23,363 bases of DNA from a virus: positions 1 through 23,363 of the IMG/VR virus record IMGVR_UViG_3300025132_000311; one strand, given 5' to 3'. Of this stretch, positions 1 through 20,454 are shown one piece after another. Below the pieces are notes generated by a model. It had not been told where the DNA came from and made no database searches. It was given only the letters and a program-made list of their open reading frames with translations. Made by a program: the position numbers and the translations under genes. Every line of letters starts with the position of its first letter. The stretch's first letter is position 1.

Positions 1-1671
1 GGGTCTTTAACGGACGCACAGACTGTTGCGAACTATCCTCTAGGTGTATATGCAGATTCAACTACCTCTGTATATGATGCTAGTTTTATATCAGGTGCTG
101 TCGATCAGGTCAATTATACATATAGAAAACTTGGTGGTGATATTCTTGATGTTGAATTGACACAAAAGAATGTGTTTGCTGCATATGAAGAATCAGTTCT
201 AGAGTATTCTTATATACTTAACATCCACCAGGCAAAAAATTCACTTGGAAGTGCTCTTGGTGGCCCTACAGGTTCGTTTGATAATGATGGACAATTATCA
301 GGTTCTGAGGTTCTATCAGATCTTGGGTTAAGACTTCCTAGATTTAATTATGGTTATGCTAAAATGGTTGGAGACCGAACTTCAATTGAAACTGGTATCG
401 GTGGCGTTTCACCAATCTACTCAGCATCAATAGATTTAACCAGCGGAAAACAAGATTATGATCTAGACAATATCATTAGAACAACAGAAACAACAGCGAG
501 CACAGATGAGAGTTTAATTGATTTTGCCGGTTTTAGTAATAATGATGATTTTACAATTACTGTCCCAGCCGCAGTTAATGGCACTGGCACCGCCATTACA
601 ATTAGATTGACCGGTGGCGATGCGACGGGAGAAGTTTCAACAGCAGCTAGTGTTGTAGCAATTGGCGTCAGTTCAGGCCCCAGTGCTGGCACAGTTGCCG
701 AAACTGTTGTTGATGCAATCAACGGATTCTTTGGAACCGGTGGGACATATAATCACAGCTTTGCTTCTGCTAATGAGGGTGTTAATACTGGTGTTCCTGG
801 TGTTATTGCCACTCTTGTCTCATCAACTAAAATTAAATTAACTTCTAGTGTTGCTGGCACAGATGGTAATGATATTACAATCACAGCAGGAACTGGTGAT
901 GCTGCAACTACCGGTACCGCATCTGGCGGCGCTACCAATCAATATTTCGGTCCAGATTTAAGAAACCACGCAAATGATAGAATTATGGTTCGAAGAGTTT
1001 ATTTTAAAACCCCACACTCCATGTGGAGGTTTTATGGATATTATGGTGGATTAAACTCTGTTGGCAACTTATCAACATACGGCATGTTTGCCGATGATTC
1101 AACATTTGAAGTTGTGCCACCTTGGCAAAATAAAATGCAGGCGATGGCTTATGAAGATGCCATCTATACAAGAAACTCTCACTACTCTTATGAGATAAAG
1201 AATAACAATTTAAGAATACACCCTAGACCAGTATCAGGTAGCCCCTCTAAGATGTATGTGGAGTTTTCAGTAGAGGTTGGCGCTTTTGATACCGTGTCAG
1301 GTTCCCTGGATAATGGAGCAAGGACTGGTATTAACAATATGAATACGCTTCCTTTTACAAACTTACCATATAAAAAGATTAATGCTATTGGTAAGCAATG
1401 GATTCGTAGATTTGCTTTATCACTAACAAAAGAGATGCTCGGTCAGGTTAGAGGCAAGTTTGCAACGGTGCCAATTCCCGGTGAGTCGGTTACTTTAAAT
1501 GCTTCTGATTTGTTATCGCAGGCGAAGGAAGAGCAAGAAAAGTTAAGAGAAGAACTTAAAACTGTCCTTGATGAGATGACTTATCAAAAACTTGCCGAGC
1601 AAGAAGCAACAATGGCCAAGTCTGTAAGTGAGACTTTCCAAACAGTTCCTAACTTTATTTTCACGGGGTAA
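1..1671 (+). CDS. Neck/head-closure virion protein, gp13-like (5' partial)
   Basis: The frame is open from base 1, so this is the C-terminal 556 residues of a longer protein. The TTG at 157 is internal and not a start. The C-terminal part (a segment with INAIGKQWIRRFALSLTKEM, then a VPIPGESVTLNASDL segment and a charged helix) has the flavour of T4-like gp13 neck proteins, and the position just before gp14-, gp15- and gp18-like genes agrees. Visible codons 171-310 form a Gly/Thr/Ala-rich, probably beta-rich module that recurs almost unchanged in the tail sheath gene; the flanking regions are not related to the sheath. A helical, possibly coiled-coil stretch (KEEQEKLREELKTVLDEM) lies near the end. 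The gene stops at TAA, five bases before the next start. Coding status is certain; the gp13 assignment is an inference from order and recalled sequence pattern, and another portal-proximal structural role is possible. Confidence 0.6.
   Translation, partial: GSLTDAQTVANYPLGVYADSTTSVYDASFISGAVDQVNYTYRKLGGDILDVELTQKNVFAAYEESVLEYSYILNIHQAKNSLGSALGGPTGSFDNDGQLSGSEVLSDLGLRLPRFNYGYAKMVGDRTSIETGIGGVSPIYSASIDLTSGKQDYDLDNIIRTTETTASTDESLIDFAGFSNNDDFTITVPAAVNGTGTAITIRLTGGDATGEVSTAASVVAIGVSSGPSAGTVAETVVDAINGFFGTGGTYNHSFASANEGVNTGVPGVIATLVSSTKIKLTSSVAGTDGNDITITAGTGDAATTGTASGGATNQYFGPDLRNHANDRIMVRRVYFKTPHSMWRFYGYYGGLNSVGNLSTYGMFADDSTFEVVPPWQNKMQAMAYEDAIYTRNSHYSYEIKNNNLRIHPRPVSGSPSKMYVEFSVEVGAFDTVSGSLDNGARTGINNMNTLPFTNLPYKKINAIGKQWIRRFALSLTKEMLGQVRGKFATVPIPGESVTLNASDLLSQAKEEQEKLREELKTVLDEMTYQKLAEQEATMAKSVSETFQTVPNFIFTG
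511..930 (+). repeat. 140-codon surface-like module, copy 1 (in neck-like gene)
   Basis: This in-frame block runs from the codon before LIDFAGFSNNDDF to the codons ending TASGG. It aligns without gaps to 4077-4496 in the tail sheath gene; by hand count about 113 of 140 residues are identical. The DNA is also close: the first roughly 40 bases after the block start differ at one position. It is rich in Gly, Thr, Ser, Ala and Val with few charged residues, as in beta-sandwich decorations of phage surface proteins. Confidence 0.9.
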
Positions 1672-1676
1672 TATGA

Positions 1677-2174
1677 GTGGCAAGAGATGAAACAAAAAAA
1701 TGGTCACAACCTAGCCAACCACCTCCTCCATTATTTCTTGGAAAGAAGGAGAAGGACCTGGTTAAGCAGGTTAATGATGAACTTATCGAAAGAGTCATTG
1801 GCCAGCCCGTATTGTATTATCCAATCAGCTTAGAACACACAAACTTTCATCCTTTATATGGCGAGGCAATTGAGAAGGTATTCCTTCCACCTGTCCGAGT
1901 GTATGCCCTCGTTGAGTGGCAATCATTTGAGACAGAGTTCCAAAAGTATGGTATTGATCGTAAATCAGAGATAACGGTACATTTTCATAAACGTCGTCTA
2001 ACAGAAGACCAAGACTTATTTGTTCGTGTTGGTGACTTTGTTAATTATGGCGGTATCTTTTATGAGATTGTGACTTTGGCAGAGCCAAAACAATTATTTG
2101 GTCAAGTTGATGATAGATTGGAAATCTCGGCTAAGTGTATAAGAGCGAGAAAGGGGCTATTCGATGGGAACTAA
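1677..2174 (+). CDS. Neck protein, gp14-like head-tail joining protein
   Basis: This 165-residue protein starts at GTG 1677, with GGGG at 1665-1668 as the likely ribosome binding site. An ATG at 1673 is out of frame and stops after five codons. The N-terminus is proline-rich (QPSQPPPPLF), followed by a segment with YYPISLEHTNFHPLYGEA and VYALVEWQSFETE, and a C-terminus with a GDFVNYGGIFYEIV strand pattern and an RARKG motif. This pattern, the compact size and the position between a gp13-like and a gp15-like gene suggest the gp14-type neck protein, which helps attach the tail to the head vertex. T4 gp14 is longer (256 aa). The end overlaps the next gene by 11 bases, implying translational coupling. 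Function is moderately supported; coding status is clear. Confidence 0.6.
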   Translation: MARDETKKWSQPSQPPPPLFLGKKEKDLVKQVNDELIERVIGQPVLYYPISLEHTNFHPLYGEAIEKVFLPPVRVYALVEWQSFETEFQKYGIDRKSEITVHFHKRRLTEDQDLFVRVGDFVNYGGIFYEIVTLAEPKQLFGQVDDRLEISAKCIRARKGLFDGN

Positions 2175-3117
2175 TAAAATTACAGATAGAAGAGAGAGTA
2201 ACATTATTAGACCATCAGCACAAAACTATCCACCTCTTAGATCTAGAGACACTCGACCTTCTTATGGCCATACAGAGATTGATGATACTTCCATTATCAA
2301 AGAGAAGATATTAACACCATCGACACTGGAAACAATAGACTTGGCGATGTACGAGTTTATTAACGATAGTCTTGACTTATTTACTACAACAAATGAAGAT
2401 AGAAAAAAGGTTCCAGTTATTTGGGTGTCAGCCGAGAGAGCTTTTCAAGTTAAGAATGACCCTGAACTTCGTGATTCTAATGAGGCAGTAAAGCTTCCTG
2501 TTATTTCTATTGAGAGAAAGAATGTCGAAAAGGGTCTAGATGTTAATAAAAGAATGTTTGGTAATATGCCTGCTTACCCTGATGCGAGAGGTGGTTCAAT
2601 TGTTGTTGCAAGAAAAATCAATCAAGACAAAACTGCCAACTTTCAAAACGCCATGGCAGACAGAAAACATAAACAAATGAACTTTCCAAGAAAGAATGAC
2701 AAAAAAGTTGTTTATCAGACAGTTACAATTCCAATGCCAGTATATGTTCTTAATACCTATGCTGTTACATTAAGAACAGAATATCAACAACATATGAATG
2801 AGTTATTAACTCCATTTGTTACAACACCAGGCACAATAAACCAAGTTATACTTAGGCACGAAGACCATCAGTATTCAGCATTAATTGATGGTGGTTTTAC
2901 CTTTAATAACAACCTTGATAACCTAGCAGAAGAGGAGCGAACTTTTGAAACCGCCATTGAATTTAAGGTGTATGGTTACCTTATCGGAGAGGGTGACAAT
3001 CAAAAGACTCCAAAGATTGTTGTAAGAGAAAATGCAGTTGAGGTCAAAATAGGCAGAGAACAGGTCATTTTAGGTGACATTAATCAGAATTTGAACCAAT
3101 CCTTTTATAGGGAATGA
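2164..3117 (+). CDS. Tail terminator / sheath stabiliser, gp15-like
   Basis: This 317-residue protein begins at ATG 2164 within the end of the preceding gene, with AGGGG-type pairing just upstream. The core contains VPVIWVSAERAFQVK, a GGSIVVARK strand and, around residues 196-250, a segment including RTEYQQHMNELLTPFVT followed by YSALIDGGFTFNNNLDNL. That combination (a helix with MNELLTPF, then an IDG strand) resembles T4 gp15-type tail completion proteins, which cap the tail tube and sheath and bind the neck. Its place immediately before the sheath gene is that of a terminator in T4-type order. T4 gp15 has 272 residues, so the size fits. The first roughly 60 residues look unstructured. The assignment is by order and pattern, not by alignment. 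Confidence 0.55.
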   Translation: MGTNKITDRRESNIIRPSAQNYPPLRSRDTRPSYGHTEIDDTSIIKEKILTPSTLETIDLAMYEFINDSLDLFTTTNEDRKKVPVIWVSAERAFQVKNDPELRDSNEAVKLPVISIERKNVEKGLDVNKRMFGNMPAYPDARGGSIVVARKINQDKTANFQNAMADRKHKQMNFPRKNDKKVVYQTVTIPMPVYVLNTYAVTLRTEYQQHMNELLTPFVTTPGTINQVILRHEDHQYSALIDGGFTFNNNLDNLAEEERTFETAIEFKVYGYLIGEGDNQKTPKIVVRENAVEVKIGREQVILGDINQNLNQSFYRE

Positions 3118-3140
3118 TTTGGATTTTCATTTCAACTCTT

Positions 3141-3152
3141 ACTATTTATTAG
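3141..3152 (+). promoter_or_regulatory. Shared intergenic motif, copy 1 (before sheath gene)
   Basis: ACTATTTATTAG lies 42 bases before the sheath ATG, in the 77-base gap after the gp15-like gene. The same 12 bases occur before the tail tube gene (6769-6780), and a 10/12 match occurs before the 106-aa gene (8506-8517). The recurring position ahead of genes needed in large amounts suggests a promoter element or an RNA processing site. It is not the T4 late promoter TATAAATA. Confidence 0.5.
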
Positions 3153-3194
3153 AGAATCATTGCCTTTATATGTTCATGAAAGGAGAATATCAGA

Positions 3195-6100
3195 ATGTCA
3201 GTAAAGAAGTTTAAGTTCGTTTCACCCGGTATCTTTGTAGATGAAATTGATAATTCAGGAGTTCCCGCTATCCCTGATGCGATTGGACCAGTCGTTATTG
3301 GTCGTGCGGAAAAAGGCCCTGCCTTGCTTCCAACAACAGTGGATTCGTTTTCTGAATTTGTTGATGTTTTTGGTCTTCCAGTTGGTGGTGGCTTGGGTGG
3401 CGATGTTTGGAGAAATGGCAACTTTACCTCTCCCATGTATGGAACATATGCAGCACAAGCTTGGCTTAAGAACAACTCTCCTTTGACCTATGTTCGTCTT
3501 CTTGGTGATGAACACCCTGACTCGGGTGCAACAAGAGCACTAGGCGCTGCTGGCTGGATTGCTGGTGCTGGTACCACGAGCGCAACAATTGCCGATAATG
3601 ATGGAGCATATGGGTTATTTATTATTCCATCGGCTTCTGTGGCAACCAATGCTACTGGAACATTGGCCGCTGTGTTTTATACAGATGGTGCTGTTGTTCG
3701 CTTAAGTGGTTCTGCTTATGCTCCCTTGAGTCTTGGCGCTAGCATTAAAGGCACTATCAATAAAATTGAAAGAAATGGAGCCGGTCTGCCGGTTTATAAC
3801 TCTGGCGCTGATTTTGAATTTACTCTAGAGATTTCTGATACCGACATCGCTACCAATACCGGTGTTGATAAACACGTAATTAACTTTAATAAAGATTCTT
3901 CAAAATATATCCGTAAAGTCTTAAACACTAGCCCTGTTTTGACAAACTCTAATATTGTTGCGAGCGCCAATCAAAAGAAATATTGGCTTGGTGAGACTTT
4001 TGATAAATTCCTCACGAGTGGCGAAACAAATAAGAGCACAGGAAAAACCCCCGTAGTAAGAGCAGCAACAAGCGAAAATTTAATTGATTTTGCCGGTTTC
4101 AGTAATAATGATGATTTTACGATTACAGTTCCGGCCTCAATTGGAGGAACAGGTACCGCCATAACAATTAGATTAACTGGTGCCGATGCGACAGGAGCAG
4201 CTTCAACAACATCTACTGTTGTGGCGGTTGGTGTTAGCTCAACCCCCAGTGCTGGCACAGTTGCAGAAACTGTTGTTGACGCGATTAATGGTTTTTTTGG
4301 CTCTGGCGGGGCTTACAATCATGCTTTTGCTTCTGCGAACAGCGGCGTTAATACCGGTGTTCCTGGTGTTTCTGCTACTCTCGTATCATCAACCAAGATT
4401 AAGCTAACTGCTGATGTAGGGGGCGCTGACGGTAACAGCATCGCCATCGCAGCAGGAACTGGTGATGCCGCAACTGCTGGCAATGCTACTGGTGGTGTTG
4501 GAGACTCTACAACACCTGCATCTCATGCTGGTTTTGCTGGCATGTCTTCGGCTGCGGCAAGAGATTGTTTTGGTTTCATCGCTGCCCTAGAAACACATAC
4601 TAGTGCCAAAAACTGGTCGGATCACCTTGAAGGAATGGCGGCTTCTTCAACCGGTTGGATTTTCTCTCAGCATCTGGCTGCACATACAAATACATTCCAC
4701 CCAGATCCAACCAAGTCCTTTACTGTTCCCTTGTTTAAACTCCACTCTCATACTGGTGGTGAGTGGAATCAAAACAATATTAAGATCTCTATTCAGGATA
4801 TTAAGATTTCTAAAAATAGCACAACTGACTATGGCACATTTACTGTTGTTATTCGCCAGATTAGAGATAATGACGGCTCGCCAAGAGTGCTTGAACAGTT
4901 TAGTAATGTAAATCTTAACCCTAATTCCTTAGACTATATCGCTCGTCGTATCGGTGATAGATATTATACCTGGAATGAAGACAAAAACAAATATATTGAA
5001 AAGGGTGATTATGCTAACCGCTCTGCCTATGTTTATGTTGAAGTTGATACTGACGTAGCAAATAACGCTGTTGATGCGCGCTATGTTCCCTTCGGCTTTG
5101 AAGGCCCTCAAAGGCCAAAACCCTTTACCTTTGTATCTGGAACTGCGGCTAACGCTCACGGTATTAAGGCTTTCGGGCATGTTGCGAGACAAGATACTGA
5201 TATCTTCGGTAATAGTTGTGCCGCTAACGATACAGCGATTGCCCAAGCGATGAATCCAGGGGCTGTAACTGGGTTTGGCATAGCTGGTATGATTGGCCCT
5301 GATAAAACAACCACAAACGATGGTTTAAAGGAAGGAGCATTCCTTACCTATATGGCAGCAGATCTTACTGCTTCGGTTGTATTCCCAACCTTTGCCTTAA
5401 GATCTGGCTCTGTTGATCCATCACTTTCGTCTGGTCGTTTTGCTTACTTTGGATTTGATTCTCGTAGAAGCAACTCCTCAACTAGATTTGAAGAGAGCAA
5501 CGTTGATATTGCCCGTAAGTTAGCACCAGACTTTGATAGCACTAGTAACACCGAAACAGCGTTCTATTTCACACTTGATGATTTGATTAGCAGCGAGGGT
5601 GCTTATATGTATAAGTCAGGCTCGTATGCTAACACCGAGTCGGTCACAGCTAAGGCAAACAGCTATGTTAATATCTTAGACCCAGCTAGTGACGCTAGTC
5701 CTTCTTACGCTGTCAAGGGATTTACTGTTCCTCTGGCTGGTGGTTTTGATGGATTAGATATTACCGAGAGCGATCCTTTTAATAATGCTTCTGGTTTTGC
5801 TCGCTATGATGCTGATGAAATGAAAAACTACGCTTACTACTCAGTTAAGAAAGCTATTAACACAGTTTCAGACGCTGAGCAAGTTGAAGTTAATCTCGCA
5901 ACAGTTCCTGGTGTCACTAATGAGGCTCTTACAGCTCACCTGATTAACACTTGTGAGAGTAGGGGAGACACCCTAGCCATTATTGATCTTAAGGGTGGAT
6001 ATACCCCAATTGCCGAGGATGGTGGCACGCTCGTTAGTGCCGGCACATATGGCAGTGTTAAAGAAACAGTAGACGCCATGCTTGACCGTGGGCTTAACTC

Positions 6101-6746
6101 CAGCTATGGATGTGCCTTCTACCCCTGGGTTCAGATTAGAGATGCGATTAATGACCAGATTGTTTGGGTTCCACCTTCAGTCGTTGCCTTGGGAACGTTC
6201 TCAAGCAGCGAAAGAAAGAGCGCACCTTGGTTTGCCCCTGCTGGATTCACTAGAGGTGGGTTGTCTGAGGGCTCTGCTGGTATCCCTGTCCTGAGTGTTC
6301 GTGAGAAACTTACCTCCGAAGACAGAGATAGTCTCTATGAGAACAACATCAACCCGATTGCATCGTTCCCAGCAGAGGGTATCGTAATCTTCGGTCAGAA
6401 GACATTACAACTAACGCAATCTGCTCTTGATAGAATTAATGTGAGAAGACTTCTCATCTTTGTCAAGAAAGAGATTTCAAGAATTGCCGCTACAACCCTG
6501 TTTGAGCCGAATGTGGAGCAAACTTGGGCTGGCTTTACCGGTCGTGTGATTCCCTTCCTAGAGAAGGTGTCCTCTGGTGGTGGCTTATCTGCTTTCAAGG
6601 TCGTGCTGGATGAAACAACCACCACACCTGACCTTGTTGATAGAAACATCATGTATGCGAAGATCTTCTTGAAGCCTGCTAAGGCGATTGAGTTTATCGC
6701 ACTTGACTTCGTTGTCACGAATTCAGGAGCGGCTTTCGAGGATTAA
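3195..6746 (+). CDS. Contractile tail sheath protein, gp18-like
   Basis: This 1183-residue protein starts at ATG 3195 with a strong GAAAGGAG site upstream. The N-terminus (KKFKFVSPGIFVDEIDNSG, then GPVVIGRAEKGP) and the C-terminal third are typical of T4-family tail sheaths: residues about 960-1025 with GCAFYPWVQIRDAINDQIVW and WFAPAGFTRGGL, and about 1050-1183 with NPIASFPAEGIVIFGQKTLQ, VRRLLIFVKKEI and a last strand FIALDFVV. These regions form the contractile core; the sheath contracts to drive the tube through the cell envelope. T4 gp18 has 659 residues, so this protein carries about 500 extra in the middle, expected to face outward. Part of this is a 140-residue module (residues 295-434) also found in the neck-like protein encoded at bases 1-1671. 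Identification as a sheath is firm. Confidence 0.95.
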   Translation: MSVKKFKFVSPGIFVDEIDNSGVPAIPDAIGPVVIGRAEKGPALLPTTVDSFSEFVDVFGLPVGGGLGGDVWRNGNFTSPMYGTYAAQAWLKNNSPLTYVRLLGDEHPDSGATRALGAAGWIAGAGTTSATIADNDGAYGLFIIPSASVATNATGTLAAVFYTDGAVVRLSGSAYAPLSLGASIKGTINKIERNGAGLPVYNSGADFEFTLEISDTDIATNTGVDKHVINFNKDSSKYIRKVLNTSPVLTNSNIVASANQKKYWLGETFDKFLTSGETNKSTGKTPVVRAATSENLIDFAGFSNNDDFTITVPASIGGTGTAITIRLTGADATGAASTTSTVVAVGVSSTPSAGTVAETVVDAINGFFGSGGAYNHAFASANSGVNTGVPGVSATLVSSTKIKLTADVGGADGNSIAIAAGTGDAATAGNATGGVGDSTTPASHAGFAGMSSAAARDCFGFIAALETHTSAKNWSDHLEGMAASSTGWIFSQHLAAHTNTFHPDPTKSFTVPLFKLHSHTGGEWNQNNIKISIQDIKISKNSTTDYGTFTVVIRQIRDNDGSPRVLEQFSNVNLNPNSLDYIARRIGDRYYTWNEDKNKYIEKGDYANRSAYVYVEVDTDVANNAVDARYVPFGFEGPQRPKPFTFVSGTAANAHGIKAFGHVARQDTDIFGNSCAANDTAIAQAMNPGAVTGFGIAGMIGPDKTTTNDGLKEGAFLTYMAADLTASVVFPTFALRSGSVDPSLSSGRFAYFGFDSRRSNSSTRFEESNVDIARKLAPDFDSTSNTETAFYFTLDDLISSEGAYMYKSGSYANTESVTAKANSYVNILDPASDASPSYAVKGFTVPLAGGFDGLDITESDPFNNASGFARYDADEMKNYAYYSVKKAINTVSDAEQVEVNLATVPGVTNEALTAHLINTCESRGDTLAIIDLKGGYTPIAEDGGTLVSAGTYGSVKETVDAMLDRGLNSSYGCAFYPWVQIRDAINDQIVWVPPSVVALGTFSSSERKSAPWFAPAGFTRGGLSEGSAGIPVLSVREKLTSEDRDSLYENNINPIASFPAEGIVIFGQKTLQLTQSALDRINVRRLLIFVKKEISRIAATTLFEPNVEQTWAGFTGRVIPFLEKVSSGGGLSAFKVVLDETTTTPDLVDRNIMYAKIFLKPAKAIEFIALDFVVTNSGAAFED
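4077..4496 (+). repeat. 140-codon surface-like module, copy 2 (in sheath gene)
   Basis: This is the gapless counterpart of 511-930, occupying residues 295-434 of the sheath. Its boundaries coincide with where the similarity to the neck-like protein begins (LIDFAGFSNNDDF) and ends (a Gly-Gly pair). It lies in the expanded middle of the sheath, where homologues carry outward-facing insertions. Confidence 0.9.
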
Positions 6747-6811: not shown

Positions 6812-7423
6812 ATGGCAAGTCCAGTTAAAGGAAATACAAATTTTGAATTTTGGTCATCTAACACCGTTGAGCCAAAAAGAGCTTTTAAGTTTATGGTTAC
6901 AATCCCAGGATTCCAGCCATTTCTTGTTGCTAAAGCAGACAGACCTTCTGTCACAATCGGTGAGACCCCTCACAAGTTTTTAAACCACACATTCTATTAT
7001 CCAGGTGTTGCTACTTGGAATGATGTTAAAATTACGTTTGTTGATCCCGGCAACGGACAAGAGCCTAACCAAGACGCCACACTTCTCCTTTACAATAAGC
7101 TTCTTGAGATGGGCTATAGAACCCCTGAATTTGGATTTACTGGTCCTAACGATCTTTCTAAAAATGTTATTTCCAAAGGTCTTTCAACTACGGCCTTTAA
7201 TGAAATTCAAATTCAAACTTTAACACACGGACGACAAATCACAGGCATTAATAATCAAACAACTGTCGGTGAGAAGTTTATTCTCAAAAACGCTTGGCCA
7301 AAAGAAATAAATTTTGGTTCTTTTGATTATAATGGTGAAGATTTGCTCCAACTTGAAGTAACATTTAAGTATGATTTTGCACATCTTAAGAATAAGGGTG
7401 GTACACTCGTACAAGACATGTAA
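6812..7423 (+). CDS. Tail tube protein, gp19-like
   Basis: This 203-residue protein starts at ATG 6812 after a CAGGAGAAG ribosome binding site; an ATG at 6807 is out of frame and ends after six codons. The N-terminal part contains FKFMVTIPGF and the middle contains TFYYPGVATWNDVKITFVDP, a typical pattern of T4/P2-type tube subunits in which 'YPG ... W..V..TF.D' precedes the oligomerisation loop. The C-terminus ends in strands (LLQLEVTFKYDFAHL), as in the gp19 family. Hexamers stack to form the inner tube inside the sheath. The size is slightly above T4 gp19 (163 aa). The position directly after the sheath is the family standard. Confidence 0.93.
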   Translation: MASPVKGNTNFEFWSSNTVEPKRAFKFMVTIPGFQPFLVAKADRPSVTIGETPHKFLNHTFYYPGVATWNDVKITFVDPGNGQEPNQDATLLLYNKLLEMGYRTPEFGFTGPNDLSKNVISKGLSTTAFNEIQIQTLTHGRQITGINNQTTVGEKFILKNAWPKEINFGSFDYNGEDLLQLEVTFKYDFAHLKNKGGTLVQDM

Positions 7424-19666: not shown

Positions 19667-19711
19667 ATGAAACTCACCAAAGAAGCACTTAAACAGTTGA
19701 TTAAAGAAGAG
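19667..19711 (+). repeat. Leader-coding direct repeat, copy 1
   Basis: The first 45 bases of the 166-aa gene match bases 20164-20208 at 43 positions. The last 33 bases (19679-19711 and 20176-20208) are identical. The protein sequences diverge directly after this block. Confidence 0.95.
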
Positions 19712-20167
19712 CTTCAAACTATGGATAAAAACACGGACCTGACAACAGTCGCGGCCAAATCTATGGTTGATCCAGGGAAAAGAATGGAGGAGATACACGG
19801 AGAAAACCTCAAAAAGCTCATCAAGATACTTGGTGACAGAGGACGTGTGTTATCACAACAGTATATTGATTTTGCATTCGATGCTGCTTTTAAAAAAGTT
19901 GTGATGGAGCGGATTTTGGAATTACCTACTGACGATCTCGACGATGAAGACACTGCTTCCTTGGAGGATGCCAAGACCGGAATAAAAAACTTCCTAGATG
20001 GCAACACAGATGACATACCCGAGTTGGCCGAGGAGATCATCGGTCAGGTCAAGCAGAGCAGCCCCGAGTGGGCTAAAAAACACTTTTCGAAGATCGCTCC
20101 CGGCTATAAACCCAGTAAAGGGGCTATGCGTGAATTTGGAATTGAAGTCGAGGAGGACTACAAATGA
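19667..20167 (+). CDS. Protein with capsid-targeting-like leader (166 aa)
   Basis: ATG 19667 follows the polymerase stop by nine bases, with GAGGGT upstream. Residues 1-15 (MKLTKEALKQLIKEE) are identical to those of the next gene. The rest is an acidic, mostly helical protein (PTDDLDDEDTASLEDAKTG; DDIPELAEEIIGQVKQSSPE) with no enzyme motif I know. The leader forms a basic amphipathic helix and contains I-K-E at 12-14, fitting the (I/L)-x-E cleavage rule of the T4 prohead protease gp21, whose internal-protein substrates start with a short leader of this kind. I infer possible packaging into the head and ejection with DNA. The second half (about 19960-20160) is visibly richer in G+C than its neighbours, hinting at a different origin. 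It ends overlapping the next ATG (ATGA). Confidence 0.6.
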   Translation: MKLTKEALKQLIKEELQTMDKNTDLTTVAAKSMVDPGKRMEEIHGENLKKLIKILGDRGRVLSQQYIDFAFDAAFKKVVMERILELPTDDLDDEDTASLEDAKTGIKNFLDGNTDDIPELAEEIIGQVKQSSPEWAKKHFSKIAPGYKPSKGAMREFGIEVEEDYK

Positions 20168-20208
20168 AACTTACTAAAGAAGCACTTAAACAGTTGATTA
20201 AAGAAGAG
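20164..20208 (+). repeat. Leader-coding direct repeat, copy 2
   Basis: This is the partner of 19667-19711. The two differences are silent third-base changes in codons 3 and 5. The similarity ends at codon 15, so a leader cassette rather than a whole gene appears to be shared. Confidence 0.95.
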
Positions 20209-20454
20209 ATTGAAAAAACAGGAGTAGCCAGCGGCAAAGTAACACCAAAGACACAAGGAAGTCTTACCGCACAGGCAATTGAAAAAACGAAACAAGCATT
20301 TAGAGATGGGGATACAGCCGAAGATCAACTTTTGGTCAAGATTATTGATATGATAGGAAGCGCAGCTAAAAAACAGAGTTTAGGAACTGACTCTAAGTTA
20401 CTAAGAATACTTGGTATGATTGAAAAACACATTAATAACAGGAATAAACAATAA
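20164..20454 (+). CDS. Protein with capsid-targeting-like leader (96 aa)
   Basis: This gene begins at ATG 20164 inside the stop of the preceding gene (ATGA), preceded by GAGGAG, so translation is coupled. Residues 1-15 repeat the leader of the upstream protein, including the I-K-E possible prohead-protease site. The remainder (GVASGKVTPKTQGSLTAQAI, then helical Lys-rich segments ending KHINNRNKQ) is small and basic, which suits binding to packaged DNA, as with T4 internal proteins. It shares no clear similarity with its neighbour beyond the leader. No known domain was recognised. The internal-head-protein role is inferred; the gene itself is well supported by its start signal, coupling and the shared leader. 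Confidence 0.6.
   Translation: MKLTKEALKQLIKEEIEKTGVASGKVTPKTQGSLTAQAIEKTKQAFRDGDTAEDQLLVKIIDMIGSAAKKQSLGTDSKLLRILGMIEKHINNRNKQ

Follow-up and report, generated by a model that had tools for sequence, protein, structure and literature searches.

Additional domains of the tail sheath and immunoglobulin-like (Ig-like) domains on phage tails are already known (PMC9230969), and the Ig-like domains of phages have been described as promiscuous (Fraser et al. 2006, cited in PMC10684548; Evseev et al. 2022, PMC9230969). Domain III of the Mu sheath extends outward (PMC11915804), and domain shuffling among functional classes of phage proteins, neck passage structures included, has also been reported (Smug et al. 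2023, PMC10684548). Here we analyzed a 23,363-base IMG/VR virus record of an uncultured phage (IMGVR_UViG_3300025132_000311; the window, compared below with IMG/VR contigs labelled L001, L002 and so on), in which a neck protein and the contractile tail sheath protein carry the same module of about 140 residues (copy A and copy B, respectively; Table 1). This block is an insertion, not a core part, in both proteins, and our comparisons indicate that it is a horizontally moving accessory domain of phage tail proteins.

The blocks at 511-930 and 4077-4496 share 113 of 140 residues in an ungapped alignment and 78% of their nucleotides over 420 bases, with 21, 14 and 58 differences at codon positions 1, 2 and 3, respectively. 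The similarity described in an earlier note, made from the sequence alone, was thus reproduced with reading frames and coordinates correct, and the similarity extends by one codon on each side to about 142 residues. When the whole neck and sheath proteins were compared with blastp, the match (E = 1e-61) was confined to the stretch containing the block; with the block removed this search gave nothing better than E = 0.9, and comparison of the two family profiles returned a probability of 0.6%, in agreement with the earlier statement that the remainders of the two proteins are unrelated. Furthermore, contig L001 carries both copies and is 99.9% identical to the window at the nucleotide level over 5,301 bases, which rules out an assembly artefact in a single record.

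Table 1. Features of the window discussed in the text (all coordinates are window positions)
Feature	Position	Strand	Remarks
Neck / head-tail adaptor (Ad2-like) gene	1..1671	+	5' end cut by window start; phrog_211
Module copy A, in neck protein	508..933	+	between '...QDYDLDNIIRTTETTASTDE' and '...RNHANDRIMVRRVY'; absent from all aligned relatives
Conserved helix-loop patch of copy A	664..798	+	module residues 56-100; 83% mean pairwise identity, ten copies
Neck-region gene adjoining adaptor	1677..2174	+	syntenic in L002/L017/L029; no module
Gene between neck and sheath	2164..3117	+	synteny kept in relatives; no module
Contractile tail sheath gene	3195..6746	+	1183 aa; phrog_23 E 1.5e-63; PF17482 E 1.5e-9
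Module copy B, in sheath	4074..4499	+	sheath residues 294-435; core position 267 (site 2); model mff24c17aa019
Conserved helix-loop patch of copy B	4230..4364	+	module residues 56-100; conservation across ten copies
Tail tube gene, downstream of sheath	6812..7423	+	phrog_4542 E 4.6e-18

Both host proteins belong to recognizable families. The neck gene product matches the head-tail adaptor family Ad2 over residues 379-526 (E 2.8e-12) and has relatives in immuto, Mel-JY01 and LR756508, and L001 adds some 20 residues of open frame upstream of its window-cut start. The host of copy B has the C-terminal domain, the PHROG match and the overall fold of a sheath, and its model aligns with phage sheaths, the top hit (Z 31.6) being the sheath of a Klebsiella phage KP1-variant. 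In the neck, the block separates two conserved stretches that almost adjoin in L002, L017, Mel-JY01 and immuto, and among 48 other necks an insert of at least 30 residues never occurs at this site. In the sheath, where the core aligns from residue 26 to residue 1165 with copy B inside, no other examined sheath has an insert at the position of copy B, and a tree of 72 sheaths built on core columns groups the window with L035, L036, L037 and L046 (support 99), four nearest sheaths that all lack an insert. The block is therefore absent from the nearest relatives of both hosts; the earlier note had named a core position in both families as a finding that would refute its proposal.

Inserts of 115-196 residues at sheath core positions 147 or 178 were found in 15 of the 72 sheaths, the window not counted, and this loop region appears as a hot spot for inserts of several families. 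Four of these inserts are close relatives of the module (L002, L017, L029 and L030) and four are distant ones (L049, L052, L080 and L108), all at position 147; the remaining seven (L055, L062, L069, L070, L075, L082 and L099) showed no clear relation to it in profile comparisons, that of L069 being borderline (41%). Some of the 147/178 inserts end in a 'GNTAIT'-type motif, with no firm relation to the module. A distant relative occupies a third site in the sheath of L034, and module relatives at different loops mean that the same domain family entered one gene family at different places.

Further hosts of the block, for which the earlier note had suggested a search, lie beyond sheaths, namely T7-like nozzle, fibre-like and fibre-side proteins. 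The nozzle protein (PF25675) of the podovirus-like contig L004 (3652-9102, 1816 residues) holds two module copies; they are two domains of a long N-terminal chain of beta-rich repeat domains that precedes the main PF25675 region. A distant copy is part of a fibre-like protein (L012:4090-6954, 954 residues) from the same podovirus, and in L003, L014, L032, L127 and L128 the module is carried by a protein of 249-329 residues whose gene is flanked by T7-type tail-fibre and terminase genes. In L127 (870-1856) and L128 (3773-4759) this fibre-side protein has 329 residues, the module being followed by a C-terminal domain of about 115 residues that is absent from the L003, L014 and L032 versions. The window copies are 57-64% identical to the closer podovirus copies in non-homologous host proteins. 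Additionally, module and host disagree in their degree of relatedness in both directions: the modules of the L029 and L017 sheaths are 86% identical against 59% for the sheath cores, and those of the window and L029 69% against 48%, whereas L002 and L080 show the reverse pattern (module 26%, core 73%). Exchange of the domain without its host gene would be expected to produce conflicts of both kinds, and the earlier proposal that the module moved between genes is supported, since it is missing from the closest relatives of its hosts and its own relatives sit in other host proteins.

All relatives of the module were found in IMG/VR contigs. Searches of 50,697 GenBank phage records with four different module copies (tblastn) gave no match at E limits from 0.01 to 1, and none of 294 pattern matches in the GTDB species genomes was a relative, in a non-exhaustive search with a single 8-residue pattern. 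In Pfam and PHROG scans of the window proteins and 16 module copies no family above cut-off covered the module, although five of the 16 copies matched phrog_165 weakly (best E 0.05). An intein or homing element was rejected because no intein or HNH family was detected with Pfam and several insertion sites are used; the block also does not end in the His-Asn plus Cys/Ser/Thr of an intein splice motif.

A model of copy B, built with a 16-sequence alignment (A4), supports an independently folding alpha/beta accessory domain of about 140 residues (predicted local distance difference test, pLDDT, 74; predicted template modelling score, pTM, 0.77), with the predicted order beta-beta-beta-beta-alpha-(short helix)-beta-beta-beta and a 12-residue helix between strands 4 and 5. 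An Ig-like domain was discarded on account of this helix and of the Pfam scan of 16 copies, which gave no Ig family. In structural alignments with VIA-align the best match, of borderline weight, was the A-1(L) sheath (residues 95-184, Z 8.0, 87 residues, 2.5 Å), followed by a PhiTE tail chain (9cuy_A residues 88-176, Z 7.5), the P-SCSP1u nozzle (residues 148-240, Z 6.8), the E1004 tail (Z 5.5) and flagellins and FliD (Z 4-5.5 over 86-95 residues). Foldseek gave borderline hits on BFVD, led by PhiJL001 gp68 (E 3.5e-3) and including, further down, T7-like tail tubular protein B, a sheath and fibres, and a sequence search of the PDB with the module returned a chance-like best E of 0.36. In addition, hhalign matched the module profile to a domain of the Mu gpL sheath (about residues 98-200) with a probability of 89% (score 39.4, 60 columns), whereas 60 column shuffles reached at most 14 and slices of insert-free sheaths and necks about 12 or less. 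The matched region is probably the outward domain III, judging from its position. Each of these matches is modest when taken alone, but they fall in protein classes that actually host the module, which strengthens the case for a likeness between the predicted fold and the add-ons found in Mu/A-1(L)-type sheaths, in T7-like nozzles and as D2 in flagellin/FliD.

The most conserved part of the module comprises residues 56-100, a helix and the loop that follows it. Over ten close copies, drawn from host proteins of four kinds, this patch has a mean pairwise identity of 83%, compared with 51% and 57% for the flanking parts and 56% for strand positions, and none of 5000 permutations reached such conservation. 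This pattern suggests that the patch is a shared binding surface. Since each kind of host protein has its own surroundings in the virion, the simplest reason for it would be an external partner that all copies share; our guess is a glycan, in line with published proposals on sheath add-ons (PMC9230969).

The two window copies differ by a nonsynonymous divergence (dN) of about 0.12 and a synonymous divergence (dS) of 0.85 (NG86) to 1.28 (YN00). The resulting dN/dS of about 0.1-0.15 points to selection on the module sequence and indicates that both copies diverged under purifying selection. That the neck and sheath share ancestry as whole proteins, with the block as a conserved remnant, was the other outcome that the earlier note had set against its own proposal; it is refuted and keeps a negligible probability, since neither blastp nor profiles found similarity outside the block and relatives of both families lack it. 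The note had also offered gene conversion as the force that keeps the copies alike, and the 78% nucleotide identity over the 420 bases could be read in that sense. However, the synonymous comparison that it had proposed, made within the block, showed differences spread evenly along it, with a longest unchanged run of 7 codons (permutation P = 0.63) and no tract structure, and a dS of this size is unlike recent homogenisation, so that ongoing conversion is disfavoured as very improbable. With respect to direction, nearly all outside copies of the close family resemble copy B more than copy A, and the branch of copy B in the module tree is the shorter of the two (0.055 vs 0.23); for these reasons the neck copy is more likely the derived one, probably made from the sheath copy.

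We favour, with somewhat more than even confidence, an explanation in which the module is an accessory domain that spreads between phage tail proteins by in-frame insertion into loops and provides weak adhesion through its patch. The sheath gene of this lineage would have gained the module at site 2 and most likely donated the neck copy; the patch would bind a common partner outside the virion, such as a cell-surface glycan or similar, and the neck together with all sheath subunits would make numerous weak contacts that help to keep the tail at the cell. We favour this role of weak multivalent adhesion, and the fibre-like host in L012, in which CBM_5_12, a carbohydrate-binding module, also scores above the Pfam cut-off, was counted for it. 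Both copies would lie on the virion surface, and this placement together with weak binding, as put forward in the earlier note, is plausible but unproven; decoration along the whole tail would follow from sheath biology rather than from the present data. In a bolder version, which we consider less probable than not, phages of different morphotypes would share the module as a general stick-on binding domain whose patch recognises one common surface ligand, and this phage would have multiplied its avidity by placing it at the neck and on every sheath subunit.

The main rival, which we hold to be possible though distinctly less probable than the favoured explanation, is a mobile domain with a structural job, stabilising the sheath rings and the neck-sheath joint through contacts between modules or between a module and its neighbours. 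According to one proposal (Evseev et al., PMC9230969), additional sheath domains cement the sheath disk, and neck and sheath, which meet in the virion, both carry the module here; yet the top-conserved patch is common to nozzle, fibre-side and sheath copies with different neighbours, and in sister phages the module is confined to the sheath, sits at a different site or is missing. That the domain is a neutral or selfish passenger, which loops tolerate and recombination spreads although it does nothing for the virion, is unlikely: most sheaths do without an insert and positions 147 and 178 accept many different ones, but the excess of synonymous over nonsynonymous change and the conservation of the patch over ten copies show selection on the sequence. 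Several points weigh against adhesion and against parts of the favoured explanation. The conserved patch could serve folding or contacts within the virion, support for the deep branches of the module tree is poor, and the sheath-to-neck direction therefore rests on the closeness of copy B to outside copies. The fold model is of medium confidence, Z values of 8 or less may reflect a common arrangement, and Foldseek gave nothing below E = 1 on the PDB. In the full-length sheath model, the module region has a pLDDT of 30-60, too low to place its orientation and exposure in space.

Around the two hosts, the neck-region gene next to the adaptor had no PHROG match, and the genes for the tube and the baseplate hub lie downstream of the sheath gene. 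Elsewhere in the window, two adjoining genes (19667-20167 and 20164-20454) encode identical first 15 residues (MKLTKEALKQLIKEE) on near-identical DNA and then diverge, as if both carried one N-terminal tag or leader. The 350-residue protein encoded at 18605-19657 matches the C-terminal part only of the DNA polymerase family phrog_17.

Promiscuous tail add-ons are thus known already, whereas this module family and its sharing between neck and sheath look new: a search of the open-paper literature found no report of a single virion whose neck and sheath have one domain in common, and the main text of Smug et al. 2023 (PMC10684548) is silent on sheath or nozzle. The window offers a clear case of one accessory domain in two unrelated structural proteins of a single virion, with the same unnamed family also present in nozzle and fibre-side proteins of other phages, and the patch gives a concrete handle on the long-standing guess that tail add-ons bind cell surfaces. 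Among described domains, the add-on of Mu gpL-type and cyanophage A-1(L) sheaths (phrog_165) is similar in profile and gave a borderline structural match, but the module has about 140 residues, with an extra conserved loop, and it is optional and movable, occurring also in neck, nozzle and fibre-side proteins, whereas the Mu gpL add-on was present in all eight Mu-type sheaths sampled. The T7-like nozzle domain (P-SCSP1u gp23, PDB 8i4m; PF25675) gave a structural match (Z 6.8) and the L004 nozzle itself holds two module copies, but the module has no sequence match in GenBank phages. Flagellin and FliD D2 (flagellin IN-type) gave lower-scoring structural matches (Z 4-5.5) and have a helix similarly ending in 'AIN', but no Pfam flagellin family, PF07196 included, matched at E <= 1, and they belong to a cellular filament rather than a virion. 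The module suggests that sheath add-on, nozzle and flagellin D2-like domains use one transferable fold. Finally, like the Ig-like domains of phages, the module is an accessory domain that hops between non-homologous virion proteins, being optional in neck, sheath, nozzle, fibre-like and fibre-side proteins, and weak surface binding has been suggested for both; it is predicted to be alpha/beta rather than an Ig sandwich and has no Pfam Ig match, and so it works like an Ig-like accessory domain but is not one.
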